Assembly (NCBI GenBank): GCA_001606155.1
Contig: LODT01000011.1
Location: forward strand, 637,018 to 701,017
Length of the DNA: 64,000 nt
Reading direction: 5' to 3'
From: Tieghemostelium lacteum
Lineage: Eukaryota > Evosea > Eumycetozoa > Dictyosteliales > Raperosteliaceae
The translations under genes and the position numbers were made by a program. Positions 13,566 through 62,594 of this stretch are shown in pieces (position 1 is the stretch's first letter; each line of letters opens with the position of its first letter). The notes beneath the pieces were generated by a model. The model was not told the DNA's origin and did no database searches. It was given only the letters and a program-made list of their open reading frames with translations.

Positions 13566-15056
13566 ATGGAAAAAATTATTATATTTCCACCTATACCTGT
13601 TGTGCATGTACCTATTACTCTATTCAATTCCAATAAACAGGCAATAGATTCAAAATATATTCTAGAGTGTAACTGGTTTATCGACGATGAAATTGTACAG
13701 TCTTTTAATGACAATGTAGATCACCATATTGGCACACAACTAAAGAGAACTTCATCTACATCATTATTGTCATTGGTAACTTCTATTGACCAACCTAAGA
13801 CACTTACCTATATACCAACACTTAAAGATGCCAATAAGACTCTAAAAGTTACTTGTAAATTCAAATCAAAAATTTTAAATTTAATTCCAGATACTTCAAT
13901 ATTTCAGTATGAACATAAAGTACTCTCCAGTAAATCCAATTCACAAAGAGAGATATACTATCTAGACAATAGTTTAAATCATCCAAATAACAATACAATC
14001 AATAATAATAACTTTAGTAGTAGTAAGAGTAATCTAGGTGCAAGTTTACAAAATTATAGAGTTATTCAATATAATATTCTAGCTGATGGTTATGTCAGTA
14101 AATTTATATTTCCATATTGTGAGCCCTATGCACTGTTTTATCAGTACTATAGAAAATATCTAATTGGAAAACAGATATTACAGTACAACCCTGATATCAT
14201 TGGACTACAGGAAGTTGAAGATTCCTATGTTGATTTATTTAAAGAGATGGAAGAATGTGGGTACGTAAGATCACCTCCATTTTCAAATTGTACAGGACTA
14301 CCAATAACACCAGGAGCAGCCCAAGAAGGTTGTGTCATTTTCTATAGATCATCGAGATTTCAAGTGATTTCTCATCTGTTGATTAGATATCAAACTATAA
14401 ATGCACAGACATGTTCTGTACCTAACAGTATTTTGACATTAGAGCAATATCAACTACTTCTTCAAGAACCAATTTTCAAACCTATTCTGGAAAAAGTTAT
14501 GCCATTCACAGATCACCACACTAAACATGTACTATTACTCTTACAGGATAAACAAACTCAAAGAATATTTGTAGCTGCCTCTATACATAATTATTGGGGT
14601 TCCATTTCCAAGATGGAATTTAACTATCAATTCCAATGTCTACAAATTGTAATTCTCTCCATGATTTTGGAGAATTTTCTAAGGTCTAATCAATTGCCTT
14701 TAGATACTGGTGTGGTGTTATGTGGTGATTTTAATGCTGGTCCTGAAAGTGAATCTTATAAATTCCTAAGTAAAGGTTTCTTTAGTGACACTGCAAAGAT
14801 TACAATACCATTCCAAAGTCCATTTATTTTCAAGAGTATCTATTCACAGTTACCTTATGGTGAACCAAGATTTACAACCTATACAAAATCATTTCAAGGT
14901 AATATCGATCAGATATTTATAAATAATTCTTTTCAAACTCATTCCATTTTGGATATATCCGATAGATCACTTTATAATGAATTTGGTTATTTACCATCCA
15001 TTGTTTTGGGTTCTGATCATATTCTACTACTATCTGATATTGAATTAAAAAAATAA
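13566..15056 (+). CDS. pde12: PDE12/Angel/CCR4-type exonuclease-endonuclease-phosphatase
   Basis: A 496-aa single-exon protein of the EEP nuclease superfamily. The closest pattern is 2',5'-phosphodiesterase 12, a mitochondrial poly(A) and 2-5A exonuclease. The N-terminal 160 residues match the beta-rich N-terminal domain of PDE12-like proteins and end in an Asn/Ser linker. The catalytic domain starts at RVIQYNILADGY (Asn170) and includes FPYCEPYAL, IIGLQEVE (metal-binding Glu216), GCVIFYR, CGDFNAGPES and the terminal SDHILLLSDIEL, so the catalytic Asn, Glu, Asp and His are all present. The N-terminus is not an obvious mitochondrial presequence, so location is uncertain. A CCR4-like deadenylase is the alternative, but the YPYC-type segment favours PDE12. 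Confidence 0.82.
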   Translation: MEKIIIFPPIPVVHVPITLFNSNKQAIDSKYILECNWFIDDEIVQSFNDNVDHHIGTQLKRTSSTSLLSLVTSIDQPKTLTYIPTLKDANKTLKVTCKFKSKILNLIPDTSIFQYEHKVLSSKSNSQREIYYLDNSLNHPNNNTINNNNFSSSKSNLGASLQNYRVIQYNILADGYVSKFIFPYCEPYALFYQYYRKYLIGKQILQYNPDIIGLQEVEDSYVDLFKEMEECGYVRSPPFSNCTGLPITPGAAQEGCVIFYRSSRFQVISHLLIRYQTINAQTCSVPNSILTLEQYQLLLQEPIFKPILEKVMPFTDHHTKHVLLLLQDKQTQRIFVAASIHNYWGSISKMEFNYQFQCLQIVILSMILENFLRSNQLPLDTGVVLCGDFNAGPESESYKFLSKGFFSDTAKITIPFQSPFIFKSIYSQLPYGEPRFTTYTKSFQGNIDQIFINNSFQTHSILDISDRSLYNEFGYLPSIVLGSDHILLLSDIELKK

Positions 15057-15608
15057 AATAATTATTTTTTTTTGTTTCACTGTAATTTATAACTTGTTTT
15101 ATTTTTCCTTATCAATATTGATCATTATATGTTTAATCAGAGAAAACAGTTTGTTATCACCAAAAAGGAACTTTTTTCAAATTGTAATTATGTGAAAAAA
15201 AAAAAAGTTGGTTGGTGGTGTGATGGTTTGAGAGGTTTAAAAAAAAAACAAATTGTGTGTTGAGTGAGGCGTTAAGATTAAAAACTAATTTTGGAACAAT
15301 TTGGGTTGATTTGTTGATGAAAACTATGAAACTAAAGAGTGGTGAAGGCGTATATAAAATATATAAAGGGGTGATTTTTGGAGTGAAAGAGGAAACGGAT
15401 TTTGAGGAGGGGGTTTGGGGGTTGATTAGTGAGAGGAGAGATAGAAAGTAATAACCAATCTAAACGTGATGAAATAAGTATAGTATAAATATAAATATTA
15501 CGAGTTGGGTTGGGTTGGGTTGATTAGTGGGTGGTTGCAATATTTGAGGAGAGGTGGCGAATTGGTTATTACTAATTAAACAATAAATCTATCCCTACAC
15601 TGATCCGT
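15057..15608. other. Convergent intergenic region, plus strand G-rich
   Basis: About 550 bp between two converging genes. Positions 15210-15440 are unusually G-rich on the plus strand, and four GGG runs lie at 15507-15531. In the sense of the minus-strand neighbour this is a C-rich 3' flank with repeated CAACCC units. The 64-codon frame at 15257-15451 starts with TTG-like context and is not a credible gene. Confidence 0.6.
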
Positions 15609-16376
15609 TTAAGAATCAGAAACAGAGATAGTTGGAGTTATATTGAGCAGTCTACGTAAATCAAATGTGATGCTTTGCAAGTCCACTTGGCTAATGGTCT
15701 CGGATGGTTCGTCATCGTCGTCAAAGTTTGGAATTGGCAATGAACTTGGGGAGGGAGAGTTGTTAAAAGCTCCACCAGCCCAGCATGGTGGTGCAGAGTT
15801 GGTAGGTGAGGAAACTTTTTTATTGGGTGAGTTTCGCGATGGTGGGGTATTGAATTTTCCTTTAACTGGGGTAGAGTTTTCTGAGGTGAAAGAAGATTCT
15901 TTTTGAAGAAAAGCTGGAGTCAACAACAATTCAATGGGCTCAAGAATTTTCAATTGTGGCTCTTTCTTTGGTGTTTTAGTTATATTATTATTACTAGAGT
16001 TTTGCTTATCGTTGGTTTCATGTTGTTTTTGCTGTTCAAATTGGTTAACAGTAGGTGGAAGTTTCTTTCTCTGTGGAGAATTCTTTTGGTAATGAATATT
16101 TGGCTTTTTCAGTTTGAGATTATCCTGTTCTGAGCCTGGCATTATAAAGTAACCACCAGCAAACTCACCAACATCAGATTTGGCCACGACCGCATCTTGG
16201 AAAGTGGTAGCTTTCTTATTCCCGTTATTATTATTGCTACTATTGTTGCTGTTATTATTATTATTATTCATATTGTTATTATTCATATTTTGGTTATGTT
16301 TTTTATAAACCTTTTTGTTGGTGTTGCTATTGTTATTTTCGGTAAAATTCATTTTGTTATTGTGGTTGTTGTTCAA
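15609..16376 (-). CDS. PNRC/Edc1-like candidate mRNA-decapping enhancer
   Basis: A 255-aa Asn-rich protein on the minus strand, single exon. Most is low complexity: poly-Asn at 1-60, then Lys/Pro/Ser-rich. Around residues 195-220 it carries CWAGGAFNNSPSPSSLPIPNF. Split as [Y/W]AGxxF, a short spacer, then SPxPSxLPxPxF, this is the short linear motif shared by vertebrate PNRC1/2 and fungal Edc1/Edc2, where it binds the Dcp1 EVH1 domain and activates the Dcp2 decapping enzyme. A Trp stands in place of the usual Tyr. The C-terminal helix-like QSITFDLRRLLNI may be a second docking motif. The function is inferred from the motif alone. Such proteins are typically disordered, as here. Confidence 0.68.
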   Translation of the reverse strand: MNNNHNNKMNFTENNNSNTNKKVYKKHNQNMNNNNMNNNNNNSNNSSNNNNGNKKATTFQDAVVAKSDVGEFAGGYFIMPGSEQDNLKLKKPNIHYQKNSPQRKKLPPTVNQFEQQKQHETNDKQNSSNNNITKTPKKEPQLKILEPIELLLTPAFLQKESSFTSENSTPVKGKFNTPPSRNSPNKKVSSPTNSAPPCWAGGAFNNSPSPSSLPIPNFDDDDEPSETISQVDLQSITFDLRRLLNITPTISVSDS

Positions 16377-17766: not shown

Positions 17767-19848
17767 ATGAAAGTAAAAAATATAAAGAATATATTAACAG
17801 AGAAAGTTAAAAAAAAGCAAAAGACAGGTGAACCCACACTACAACAATCCGTTAATAGTGAACACACAACTAATAGCGGTGTCATCAACAATCCCCACAC
17901 ACCCAACACAGATGACTCGTCACTTTACAATAAGTTTACTAATTTAACAACAACAACTACCACCAACTCTTCTCCTCACCATAAGAACAAAGAAAGTAAA
18001 CTTAAAACTAAAAAAAACAAAAAAGAAAAAAAGCAGAAGAGTTTAGATTATATTGATAAGTTTTATAGTGACATACCGAAGGATCAACATTATCCTACAC
18101 ATCATAAAGACTCACCTTCCTATCAACAAGCACAATCGGATAACAACACAACCATGACCAATATCAGCAGTAGTAACAAAAACCATTCTACAACCAACAG
18201 AACAACAGAGACTTCAACGGCATCAACTTCCACAAAGAATTTAGATTCTTCATTTTCAAGTACCAACTATTCAGATTTTAGTTATTCCTCGGTTATAGAG
18301 AGTCGAGATAACACACCTCATATGGACTCTCGTAGTAACAATAACCCTAACAATAACAACCATTTTGACGATGACACTAATGAATGGGACACATCTGAAG
18401 AGGATTTTGACGAAGACTACGATGAGGAATACGATGGTGAGGAACAGAGTGAACAAGATGAAAAAAGACAAGTAAGATCTCCTTTAAATCTCTACTCCTA
18501 TCTCAGCGATAAGGCTTTGAAAACTGTTGAAACTAAGATTCAACTGAGTGAACAAACACACGGACCTAATGTATTCCCACTAGATGAGACACTAGTTGGT
18601 ATAAAAATTGTAGATCTCAATGGAAATCGTATAGAATTTGCCTCTTTATGGGACAATAGAAGAATAGTTTTGGCAGTTTTTAGAAGATTTGGTTGTCTAG
18701 TTTGTAGATTACAGGCACTGGAGTTATCTTCACTAAAATCTAGATTTGACCAAATGGGTATCACTCTTATAGGTATAGGTTTTGATCCAGATGGTTTAGA
18801 TGAGTTTATAGAAGGTAAATTCTTTGCCGGTGAGATCTATATAGATAAAGCAAGAGCAGTACATAGAGCACTGTCTCTCAAGAGATTAGGGTTCTGGGAT
18901 AGTGCTGTAGGATTCACAGATCCTCGTTTACTAGCCTACAGAAAAAAGGCAAAAGAAATTGGAATGCCTTCCAATTTCAAAGGTGACGGTCTACAACTAG
19001 GTGCCACTATTGTACTTGGACCCAAACCACAATCGGCTCACTATGATTTTAGACAAAGAAGTTTTACTGATCTTTTTGATATCAATTTGATCTTACAAGC
19101 TTGTAAAACACCTTATCCTGATGGTTTTGATCCATATAATAAATTCAATATATCAGCAATTGTACAAAGTAAACAGCAACAATCAAAGATAACTAATAAT
19201 AATATATTGCCACCACCAATTTTCATTCCAAATGCTACAGAATTACATTTTTCAACACCTACAAATAACACATCAGATAAAAATCAAAAAAATGTTGATC
19301 CATTGGGTCAATTGCAAATCTCACAATATTCACCAATTTCTACAACCATTTCTACAACTACAAATACAACTACAACTACAACTACAACTACATCTTCATT
19401 GTCAAGATCGGCACCTGATTTAAAACATGCACTTTCACAGAGTCTCTCACCTTCCACCTCACCAAAATACAATACATTTACATTTGATTCATTTTACAAT
19501 GAATACTCGGAACTGGATCAGAATACTGATATTACAAATAGCACAACTACAACAACCACAACAGCAACAAACACAATTAACTCAACTAACAATAATATAT
19601 TTGACCAAAAAACAGAAGATATTGAAGACGAAATTTCATTAAGAATCATAAAGAGACCATATGGTAAAGCAAACAAAAAACAATATCAAGCACTTTCTAC
19701 CATTGACTTTTATGATAATATTAAATTTGAATCAATTGTACAACAAGATAGCCAACCAACTTTGATTCCATCTTCTACTTATTTGACCTCAACAAATTCA
19801 ATCATGAAAATTGAACTTGAAAAGAATATAATATATAACCCTTATTAA
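17767..19848 (+). CDS. Peroxiredoxin-like-2 (PRXL2/FAM213, AhpC-TSA-like) domain protein with long disordered arms
   Basis: A 693-aa single-exon protein. Residues 1-235 are low complexity (Lys-rich start, Thr/Ser/Asn, then an Asp/Glu block). A thioredoxin-fold domain follows at about 265-450: IKIVDLNGNRIEFASLW, then RRIVLAVFRRFGCLVCRLQA with a CxxC-type redox site, then LIGIGFDPDGLDEF, FAGEIYIDKARAVHRAL and LGATIVLGP. This is the AhpC/TSA-2 pattern of PRXL2A/PRXL2B (prostamide/prostaglandin F synthase-like) proteins, which are usually 200-230 aa. The rest is Thr/Ser/Asn-rich again. Redox activity is inferred from the fold and the two Cys. Its physiological substrate is unknown. The long acidic and Thr-rich arms are unusual for this family. 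Confidence 0.8.
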   Translation: MKVKNIKNILTEKVKKKQKTGEPTLQQSVNSEHTTNSGVINNPHTPNTDDSSLYNKFTNLTTTTTTNSSPHHKNKESKLKTKKNKKEKKQKSLDYIDKFYSDIPKDQHYPTHHKDSPSYQQAQSDNNTTMTNISSSNKNHSTTNRTTETSTASTSTKNLDSSFSSTNYSDFSYSSVIESRDNTPHMDSRSNNNPNNNNHFDDDTNEWDTSEEDFDEDYDEEYDGEEQSEQDEKRQVRSPLNLYSYLSDKALKTVETKIQLSEQTHGPNVFPLDETLVGIKIVDLNGNRIEFASLWDNRRIVLAVFRRFGCLVCRLQALELSSLKSRFDQMGITLIGIGFDPDGLDEFIEGKFFAGEIYIDKARAVHRALSLKRLGFWDSAVGFTDPRLLAYRKKAKEIGMPSNFKGDGLQLGATIVLGPKPQSAHYDFRQRSFTDLFDINLILQACKTPYPDGFDPYNKFNISAIVQSKQQQSKITNNNILPPPIFIPNATELHFSTPTNNTSDKNQKNVDPLGQLQISQYSPISTTISTTTNTTTTTTTTTSSLSRSAPDLKHALSQSLSPSTSPKYNTFTFDSFYNEYSELDQNTDITNSTTTTTTTATNTINSTNNNIFDQKTEDIEDEISLRIIKRPYGKANKKQYQALSTIDFYDNIKFESIVQQDSQPTLIPSSTYLTSTNSIMKIELEKNIIYNPY

Positions 19849-30605: not shown

Positions 30606-32255
30606 ATGGTAGTAGAAGAATCTGAAAGTTTTTATAAAGAGTTTAGTGAAAAGATATTAGAGAAACGTAAATCTAAAGCCAAAGTTATATTCTTTTGTTT
30701 AGTTGGAAGTCACTCTTTTAATTTAAATGTTGAAACTAGTGATAAGGATTACTTTGGTGTGTTTTTAGCTGATATTGAAGATGTATTATCAGGTAACATG
30801 AATACAATGGTAATGGATGATCACGATCCTGATTATGTATTATTCGAAGCAGAGAGATTTTGTGAACTTTTATATAAAGGTAATCCAAAGTTGGTAGAAC
30901 CACTATTTGTAAATCATTATTGTTATACTGCTCCAGAATGGTTGGAGATCTATAGACAGAGACAAAAGTTCATTAGTCAATCGGTGTGTTATCATTATAT
31001 TAGTTATTCAAAATCACAGTTGGGTGACGCTAGAAAAGCTGATACTTCAGAGAACTCAAATCTAAATAGTAACCATTCACAATTTAAGAAATTATATCAC
31101 ACTATTCGTCTGTTGGAGGAAACTAAACGAATGTTGAAAGGACAAGAACCATTGGTGTTCTTGCAAGGTGATATCAGAGAGAAGATTATGAATATACGTA
31201 TGGGTAGATGTGATTTCAATGAAACTCTAAAAGAGATTGATCAACTGTTTATCGAGACTGAAAGTACATTAGCAACTGTAAAAGAAACTAATTCTCTACC
31301 AAGATCATGTAATATACAGTTACTTAGCAGTTGGTTAGTAAATATTAGATTAAATCACATTAAATCTCTTGATCAAACTGATTTATTCTCTGAAGATCAA
31401 TTGGTATTAAAAAATGAAAATAAGTTAGACATTGTAAGCAAGTGTGAACAATTGATGAAAAATTATAGTATAGATGGTAAATTACTGTTCTTGTCTGAGT
31501 CTGGAAGTAAACTACACGGACTGAGATCAGAAAACAAATCAAATGATTGGATTGGTGTATATGTTTCAAAGACTAGTCAATATGTATCATTATATCCTGA
31601 TCCTAATAGAGTGGATCTAAATACAATTAGAGATGTAACCAAATCAAAATTGGAAGTTACAGTAGACCAATCAACACTTCAAAGAGATACCTATGTCAAT
31701 GGTATTCAATTATTTGAGATTTCTTATTTCTTATCGCTTTTAGCTAGTGGTAATCACAGAGCTGTTGAAGTTGTATTACCATTACCAAACAATAGTAATA
31801 TAGTACAATTACAAAGTGAAGCTTGGAAATCATTAATGTCACTCAATGGTCAATATCTTCAAACTAACCTTATTCATCATTGTTGGGGTGTATCCCAAGG
31901 ACAATTGGCAAAATCCAAGGCAATGGTTGACAAGGATTTCCAACAATCTAGAATTAACCTATCTCATGCTTGGAGACTTGTCAACAGATCTGAACAAGTC
32001 CTAGACCACAATCAATACTCACTAGTACCAAATGAAAATGAGTTCCAACAAATTCTCAATATTAGAGATTCTGACAGTATGTCTAAAGAACAATTTACCA
32101 TTTTACAAAAACAATGTGCTGATCAAATTCAGTCAGTCTCCAACAAACTCTCCAAACTCTCTATTTCCAGTGTAAAAGAAAAGAAACTCTCTGAACAATC
32201 TCTAAAACAACTCTACAAAACTTGGTTAATTAAATTAAGAAAATCTTATCTTTAA
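30606..32255 (+). CDS. Two-domain RlaP/YcgL-like nucleotidyltransferase
   Basis: A 549-aa single-exon protein with two copies of a polymerase-beta-type nucleotidyltransferase fold of the RlaP family (PF10127, predicted RNA-repair nucleotidyltransferases). Copy 1 has CLVGSHSFNLNVETSDKDYF with the Gly-Ser and metal-binding Asp46/Asp48, then YVLFEAERFCELLYKGNP and a helical YISYSKSQLGDARK segment. Copy 2 starts near residue 300 with FLSESGSKLHGLRS and SNDWIGVYV, and later ISYFLSLLASGNHRAVEVV. Its first acidic ligand is replaced by Ser, so it looks catalytically impaired. Tandem duplication with one live and one decayed copy is inferred. The substrate is unknown. Confidence 0.75.
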   Translation: MVVEESESFYKEFSEKILEKRKSKAKVIFFCLVGSHSFNLNVETSDKDYFGVFLADIEDVLSGNMNTMVMDDHDPDYVLFEAERFCELLYKGNPKLVEPLFVNHYCYTAPEWLEIYRQRQKFISQSVCYHYISYSKSQLGDARKADTSENSNLNSNHSQFKKLYHTIRLLEETKRMLKGQEPLVFLQGDIREKIMNIRMGRCDFNETLKEIDQLFIETESTLATVKETNSLPRSCNIQLLSSWLVNIRLNHIKSLDQTDLFSEDQLVLKNENKLDIVSKCEQLMKNYSIDGKLLFLSESGSKLHGLRSENKSNDWIGVYVSKTSQYVSLYPDPNRVDLNTIRDVTKSKLEVTVDQSTLQRDTYVNGIQLFEISYFLSLLASGNHRAVEVVLPLPNNSNIVQLQSEAWKSLMSLNGQYLQTNLIHHCWGVSQGQLAKSKAMVDKDFQQSRINLSHAWRLVNRSEQVLDHNQYSLVPNENEFQQILNIRDSDSMSKEQFTILQKQCADQIQSVSNKLSKLSISSVKEKKLSEQSLKQLYKTWLIKLRKSYL

Positions 32256-61208: not shown

Positions 61209-62594
61209 ATGAAAGAAATTAAAAATAAAATGATATTTATAATGATTGACGGATTAGCAGATGTATCATTACCAAAATATTCAAGAAAAACACCATTGGA
61301 GATTGCAAAAATACCAATAATGGATGCAATGGCAGCAACAGGAATTAATGGATCAATGGATCCAGTAGAACCAGGATTAGCATGTGGTAGTGATACAGCA
61401 CATCTTTCAATATTTGGATATGATCCAAGGATATATTATCGTGGTAGAGGTGCATTTGAATCTATGGGTGCAGGATTAGATATGAAACCAGGTGATATTG
61501 CATTCAAATCCAATTTTGCAACTTTGAATACTGATAGTGGAATTGTAATTAGTAGAAGAGCTGATAGAAATTTTGAAGAACTTGGTCCTATACTTTGTGA
61601 TTATTTAACTGGTATCAAATTACCCTCCTTTCCCCAATATCAAATCGATGTTAAATATGCAACTGAACATCGTTGTGGTATTAGAGTTAGAGGTCCAAAT
61701 CTTACAGATTCTATTAGTGGTACTGATCCTCTAACTGATAATTTACCATTATTAAAATCTAAACCTTTAAATGATGATTTTAATTCCATAAATACAGCTG
61801 CAGTTGTAAATGAACTTTCAGTTGAAATTCAAAAAGCATTAGAAAATCATCCAGTTAATATAGATAGAAGAAAGAAATTATTGTCACCCGCCAATGTAGT
61901 TTTATTACGTGGTTGTGGTGTTATAGTTGAAGCACCAACTTTTTTTGAAAAATATGCTTTACGTGCATTTATGATTGCACCAACCTGTATTATTGCTGGT
62001 CTTGGTATGTCTATTGATATTAAAGTGGTAGAGGCACCTGGTGCAACTGGTGACTATCATACCAATTTTCATTCAAAAGCCACTACACTTTTGGAAAATA
62101 TTCAAAAGGATGATTTTGATTTTGGTTTCTTACATGTTAAAGCGGTTGATGATGCTGGTCATGATAAAAATGATCAATTAAAAATTGATTTTCTTGAAAA
62201 AATTGATCAAATGTTAGATTTTATAATTAATCAATTATCAAATTTATCAAAGTTAAATGTAATTATTAATAATTATAAATCCAATTTTTATAAGTTTAAA
62301 CTAATTTTTTATATTTTTTAGATTTCAATATGTTTAACAGGTGATCATTCAACACCAGTTATGACAGGTGATCATAGTTGTGAACCTGTACCATTTACAA
62401 TTTCTAAACCAAAATTGATTTCAAAATATCTTTTAAATAATAATAATATTGACAGTTTAAGAAACGACTTTTCATTAATTGATAATGTAACAAGTTTCTC
62501 TGAAATTAATTGTTCTAAAGGTTCATTAGGCAGATTTAATGGTGGTCAAGTAATGAATATAATCCAACAATATATGAATAAACAATATTGTTAA
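61209..62594 (+). CDS. apgM: Archaeal-type 2,3-bisphosphoglycerate-independent phosphoglycerate mutase (two exons)
   Basis: Interconverts 3- and 2-phosphoglycerate. Exon 1 (61209-62258, from the first ATG rather than the upstream TTG at 61167) and exon 2 (62322-62594) encode 440 aa. The donor is GTAATT and the branch-like region is CTAAT. Motifs are MIFIMIDGLAD (metal Asp), GLACGSDTAHLSIFGYDP, RGRGAFESMGAG, FATLNTDSGIVISRRADR, IIAGLGMSIDIKVVEAPGAT, HVKAVDDAGHDKN and CLTGDHSTPV. This is the aPGM type of the alkaline-phosphatase superfamily, with metal-binding residues intact. It differs from the cofactor-dependent enzyme of animals. Confidence 0.92.

Follow-up and report, generated by a model that had tools for sequence, protein, structure and literature searches.

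The locus and its surroundings

We describe here a gene from the dictyostelid Tieghemostelium lacteum whose predicted product carries a motif of the PNRC/Edc1 type, together with the putative Dcp1 and Dcp2 partners encoded in the same genome. The gene lies in the window, by which we mean the whole stretch of 64,000 nucleotides analysed (contig LODT01000011.1, positions 637,018 to 701,017 of the forward strand). The host assembly comprises 23.33 Mb in 43 contigs, with AT-rich spacers and Asn-rich proteins. Coordinates of the features are collected in Table 1.

The open reading frame, taken from the ORF list of the window, runs on the minus strand from an ATG at 16352, in the context ACAAAATG, to a stop at 15609, and is enclosed in a stop-to-stop open frame of 276 aa. 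The initial annotation had placed the extent of the gene at 15609..16376; the reading frame is real, but 16376 corresponds to an in-frame TTG 8 codons upstream of the ATG. The GC content of the gene is 36%, compared with 31% and 19% in its two flanks.

Table 1. The PNRC/Edc1-type gene, its segments and the second Dcp2-like gene of the genome (positions in the window, except for the last row)
Feature	Position	Strand	Basis
PNRC/Edc1-type protein gene, 247 aa, mostly disordered (predicted), Asn-rich	15609..16352	minus	single exon; ORF and PF15365 match
FAGGYF, aa 64-69, aromatic-AGxxF hexamer without Dcp1-binding half	16146..16163	minus	pattern position
PNRC motif, aa 191-210, WAGGAF (Dcp2-activating half) and SPSPSSLPIP (Dcp1-binding half)	15723..15782	minus	PF15365 positions 1-20, 35.7 bits
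C-terminal tail, aa 211-247, including LRRLL (aa 232-236) within DLQSITFDLRRLLNI	15612..15722	minus	resemblance to presumed PNRC2 end
Second Dcp2-like gene	L004:400-1840, C7	minus	PF05026

The convergent neighbour on the plus strand (13566-15056) encodes a protein of the endonuclease/exonuclease/phosphatase family, for which 2',5'-phosphodiesterase 12 is the closest protein in the PDB, followed by CCR4-NOT subunit 6 and Nocturnin. An enzyme of RNA-decay type may adjoin the PNRC/Edc1-type gene, perhaps by coincidence. The two convergent genes are separated by a spacer with a short GGGTT-like repeat run at 15500-15530 (plus strand, ttgggttgggttgggttg), which matched no Rfam family at the gathering threshold. 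Further plus-strand genes in the window encode a 693-aa protein with an AhpC/TSA_2 antioxidant-type domain and, by eye, long low-complexity stretches (17767-19848); a protein with two stretches of PF10127 (RlaP), by description a DNA polymerase beta family of an RNA-repair pathway (30606-32255); and a 2,3-bisphosphoglycerate-independent phosphoglycerate mutase with a PF10143 match (61209-62321). Phosphoglycerate mutases of the PF10143 type are mainly archaeal.

The PNRC motif and the remainder of the protein

At aa 191-210 the predicted protein reads WAGGAFNNSPSPSSLPIPNF, arranged as WAGGAF-NN-SPSPSSLPIP, with the two halves in tandem and in register. A Pfam scan of the protein aligned 20/20 profile positions of PF15365 (PNRC motif) with an E value of 7.6e-9, the curated whole-protein cut-off of this family being 21 bits. 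The order first read from the letters, a YAGxxF-type motif followed by one of the SPxxxLPxP type, is present. The initial annotation had also expected the protein to escape ordinary homology search, which it does not: because PF15365 matches all 20 positions above its cut-off, the motif is within reach of an ordinary Pfam scan. Besides PF15365, no Pfam family exceeded its cut-off in the 247-aa protein. Genome-wide (six-frame translation, 23 Mb), PF15365 gave one candidate and one reported match (E = 9.2e-8), at C9:652740-652799, which is the same place. Among 200,000 composition shuffles of the protein, the full pattern [YWF]AGxxFxx[SP]PxxxxLPxP was found in 0, the activating half singly in 119 and the Dcp1-binding half singly in 312.

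In a phmmer search of the PDB, peptides of S. pombe Edc1 ranked first and second, at non-significant E values of 0.17 and 0.65. S. pombe Edc1 (C18G6.09c; YAGPTFTHSPAASNLPIPTF) aligned across 20/20 residues, including LPIP and the final Phe, in a comparison that rests on PDB peptides of up to 41 residues. Scored as short peptides against PF15365, the motifs of the amoeba protein and of S. pombe Edc1 reached 38.0 and 38.3 bits, respectively, so that by sequence the former is an ordinary family member. The first motif residue is Tyr in the characterised members compared (S. pombe Edc1, K. lactis Edc1 and human PNRC2), and its replacement by Trp in the amoeba, already pointed out in the initial annotation, is confirmed. 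Swapping this residue gave 39.2 bits with Tyr, 36.9 with Phe and 34.1 with Ala (aligned at positions 2-20 only); Trp instead of Tyr lowers the profile score by just 1.2 bits, a mild departure for the family. The PNRC/Edc1 type proposed for the protein is backed by the Pfam match, by the S. pombe Edc1 peptide alignment (weak alone) and by the Dcp1 and Dcp2 docking residues described below, with activation as a prediction. By its motif, the protein is a PF15365 (Edc1/PNRC) family member in an amoeba.

With human PNRC2 the protein shares an aromatic-AGxxF hexamer followed by [SP]PSPSxLPxP (PNRC2 letters from 4b6h_C and 5kq1_C); a C-terminal LxxLL stretch about 20 residues past the motif may be shared as well. 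It differs from human PNRC2 and PNRC1 in the Trp for Tyr, an Asn-rich N-terminal half, the second hexamer FAGGYF and an acidic DDDD immediately after the motif. S. cerevisiae Edc2, compared by its published description, is a decapping activator like Edc1 but is without the YAG half (PMC8984151), whereas the amoeba protein has WAG.

The protein contains 43 Asn, 28 Ser and 22 Pro and ends in ...SAPPCWAGGAFNNSPSPSSLPIPNFDDDDEPSETISQVDLQSITFDLRRLLNITPTISVSDS. Within its tail, DLQSITFDLRRLLNI aligns ungapped over 15 residues with what we take to be the end of human PNRC2 (DKEIMTFQLKTLLKV), with a score of 32 that 16/5000 tail shuffles reach; PDB rows verify these PNRC2 letters as far as ...SFNP, and the final 18 are presumed. 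With the presumed PNRC1 tail, the observed score was reached in 2144/5000 shuffles, which gives no support. In its letters, the tail resembles the presumed PNRC2 end and not clearly that of PNRC1. The LxxLL pattern is common in shuffles (7,080/200,000 of the whole protein; 506/100,000 in the last 37 residues, rest shuffled) and is therefore, alone, suggestive only. A four-residue helix is placed at aa 232-235 in a low-confidence single-sequence model. A search for nuclear receptors with PF00104 was silent in the genome and silent in the control genomes too, a silence that is no proof of absence. Nuclear receptors are known as a family of the animal lineage and would not be expected in this host; a reading of LRRLL as a nuclear-receptor box in this organism was set aside on that ground, not on the PF00104 result. 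If the resemblance holds, its occurrence in an amoeba would place the LxxLL tail before any role as a nuclear-receptor box. Early studies of human PNRC described receptors bound via the proline-rich motif, unlike the coactivators that use LxxLL (PMC1939705).

Outside the motif, the protein had been called disordered, and the single-sequence AlphaFold model agrees, with a mean pLDDT of 50.8, 0 residues at 90 or above and 7/247 between 70 and 90; these values are suggestive of disorder and no proof of it. As to the fold of the protein, the model is uninformative.

Relatives were sought with the 67-residue C-terminal piece as a protein query, which returned 179 pattern stretches with 0 confirmed relatives in the genome contig collection and 15 pattern stretches with 0 confirmed relatives in the viral contig collection. 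A degenerate DNA motif pattern returned 8 stretches in viral contigs, of which 0/8 were accepted as relatives: 5/8 have a stop at the first position, where the pattern permitted TAG, and the frames of the other 3/8 are un-PNRC-like by eye.

Dcp1, Dcp2 and other decay factors of the genome

Dcp1 is encoded in the genome (L001:1021-1863, minus strand; PF06058, 132.9 bits); against the C-terminal domain PF16741 the protein scored 13.0 bits, below the cut-off of 27. In an alignment to 4b6h_A, its residues Tyr35, Phe37, Trp44 and Trp106 correspond to Tyr36, Phe38, Trp45 and Trp108 of human Dcp1a (4/4 identical), which presumably line the peptide-binding cleft. The passage of PMC5861098 on this point speaks of a 'conserved aromatic cleft' of Dcp1 without listing residues.

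Two Dcp2-type places were found with PF05026. The canonical Dcp2 (L003) is 555 aa long, with one inferred 72-base intron, and scores 241 bits against S. pombe Dcp2 (266-residue core as query), with 118/229 aligned residues identical. Its Arg131, Phe134, Trp141, Asp145 and Tyr190 correspond to S. pombe Arg33, Phe36, Trp43, Asp47 and Tyr92, while S. pombe Ile96 is replaced by Val194, a conservative change, yet at one of two essential positions. Three of the four Edc1-contact positions (Arg33, Phe36, Tyr92 and Ile96) are identical. As described in PMC5861098, the Tyr of Edc1 is in cation-pi contact with the arginine at the S. pombe Arg33 position and its Ala packs on the hinge Ile96; the substitutions R33A and I96G block activation, whereas mutations of Phe36 and Tyr92 have very little effect. 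The docking residues kept in both partners support the PNRC/Edc1-type assignment.

The product of the second Dcp2-like gene has 395 aa, with two inferred introns, and scores 125.9 bits against S. pombe Dcp2 (first 266 residues as query; 81/220 identical). Both cap-binding residues, the Trp at S. pombe position 43 and the Asp at 47, are conserved in it, as are the Nudix glutamates at positions 143, 146 and 147. At S. pombe Arg33, Phe36, Tyr92 and Tyr220 it has Asp45, Met48, Phe110 and Ala232, position 220 falling in a gappy region of the alignment, and of Arg33, Phe36, Tyr92 and Ile96 it retains Ile96 only. This enzyme is predicted from its sequence not to be activated by the PNRC/Edc1-type protein; the presence of both genes suggests a system whose two Dcp2 forms differ at the activator contact.

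Other decay factors include PAT1 (L017, 34.4 bits), an EST1/SMG-type candidate (L018, 28.6 bits with neighbours, cut-off 22) and an EDC4-like WD40 candidate (L013, 35.6 bits with neighbours, cut-off 29.5), which is tentative because the family also matched in one prokaryote control as well as at another place in the genome (L015, 31.5 bits with neighbours). One FDF-domain protein was found (L016, 33.5 bits with neighbours, cut-off 26.1); it is LSM14-like by eye, and EDC3 was therefore not identified in the genome.

Proposed function and origin

The protein is very probably a dictyostelid decapping activator of the PNRC/Edc1 family, which would clamp Dcp1-Dcp2 in the active state. Its disordered chain would display the 20-residue double motif, of which the proline-rich SPSPSSLPIP would dock into the aromatic cleft of the Dcp1 EVH1 domain and the preceding WAGGAF would thread between Dcp1 and both Dcp2 domains. 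There the motif Trp would stack on the conserved Arg131 of Dcp2 (S. pombe Arg33), the Ala would pack on the hinge Val194, and the Phe would fill a pocket between Dcp1 and Dcp2. Dcp2 would be braced in its catalytically active conformation, leading to quicker removal of the cap. For the amoeba protein itself, we infer binding, activation and the choice of target mRNAs. In the human system, a PNRC2 motif peptide equals full-length PNRC2 in stimulating DCP2 with DCP1, PNRC2 depends on DCP1, and a proline-rich peptide without YAG is impaired (PMC13103063).

The Trp is the main doubt on activation because mutation of the corresponding Tyr in PNRC2 abolishes kcat activation (PMC5861098). The protein might bind Dcp1 without activating, its proline-rich half bringing it or a cargo to the decapping complex and the Trp weakening the Dcp2-activating half; non-stimulatory factors with such proline-rich motifs are known (PMC13103063). 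We consider this unlikely: the activating half retains its AG and F, in register, and Trp, which costs little in the family profile, could give the same cation-pi contact to the partner Arg, which is retained. Less likely again, the proline-rich segment may be the ligand of a different protein with an EVH1, SH3 or WW domain, such as VASP or WASP. The motif region of human PNRC was originally described as SH3-binding (PMC1939705), but LPxP is the Edc1 motif that binds the Dcp1 EVH1 domain (PMC8984151), and the amoeba protein matches the whole 20-residue motif, of which the activating half would be superfluous for an SH3 or VASP ligand. That a low-complexity protein rich in Asn, Ser and Pro resembles the family by chance, a reading that the biased composition and predicted disorder would favour, is hardly credible against the empty count for the full motif in shuffles, the sole PF15365 match reported in 23 Mb and the E value of that match in the protein.

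With the protein read as a decapping activator, the origin of the family can be considered. A review describes PNRC1/2 as homologues of Edc1/2 in mammals (PMC8984151). A 2018 survey of proteins of mRNA metabolism, in its introduction, restricts Edc1 and Edc2 to yeast (PMC5862402), and a 2026 reconstitution paper refers to PNRC2 as vertebrate-specific and to no known metazoan orthologues of Edc1/2 (PMC13103063). No report of an amoebozoan PNRC/Edc1 member was found in the open-licence PMC literature; protein databases may list some under PF15365. Because the slime-mould protein carries the PNRC2/Edc1 double motif, the decapping switch probably predates the split of amoebae from animals plus fungi. 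The amoebozoan motif and the matching Dcp1 and Dcp2 residues argue against independent inventions and for one old mechanism, of which yeast Edc1 and human PNRC2 are both remnants. A wider proposal, tentative and as a whole rather doubtful, would make PNRC and Edc1 one ancient family, present before amoebozoans diverged from animals and fungi, with a C-terminal LxxLL helix that predates nuclear receptors and first served RNA decay; the activator would address the canonical Dcp2 alone, the second Dcp2 would be insensitive to activation of the Edc1 type, and decapping would follow two routes under separate control.

The second hexamer, FAGGYF, was spotted post hoc, and the pattern [YWF]AGxx[FYW] occurs in 86/200,000 shuffles of the remaining protein. 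In the profile scan this stretch had no Pfam match, including to PF15365. FAGGYF may be an extra segment that touches Dcp2, or else chance. Its surroundings (GEFAGGYFIMPGSEQDNLKLKKPN) are poorer in Asn than the adjacent stretches.
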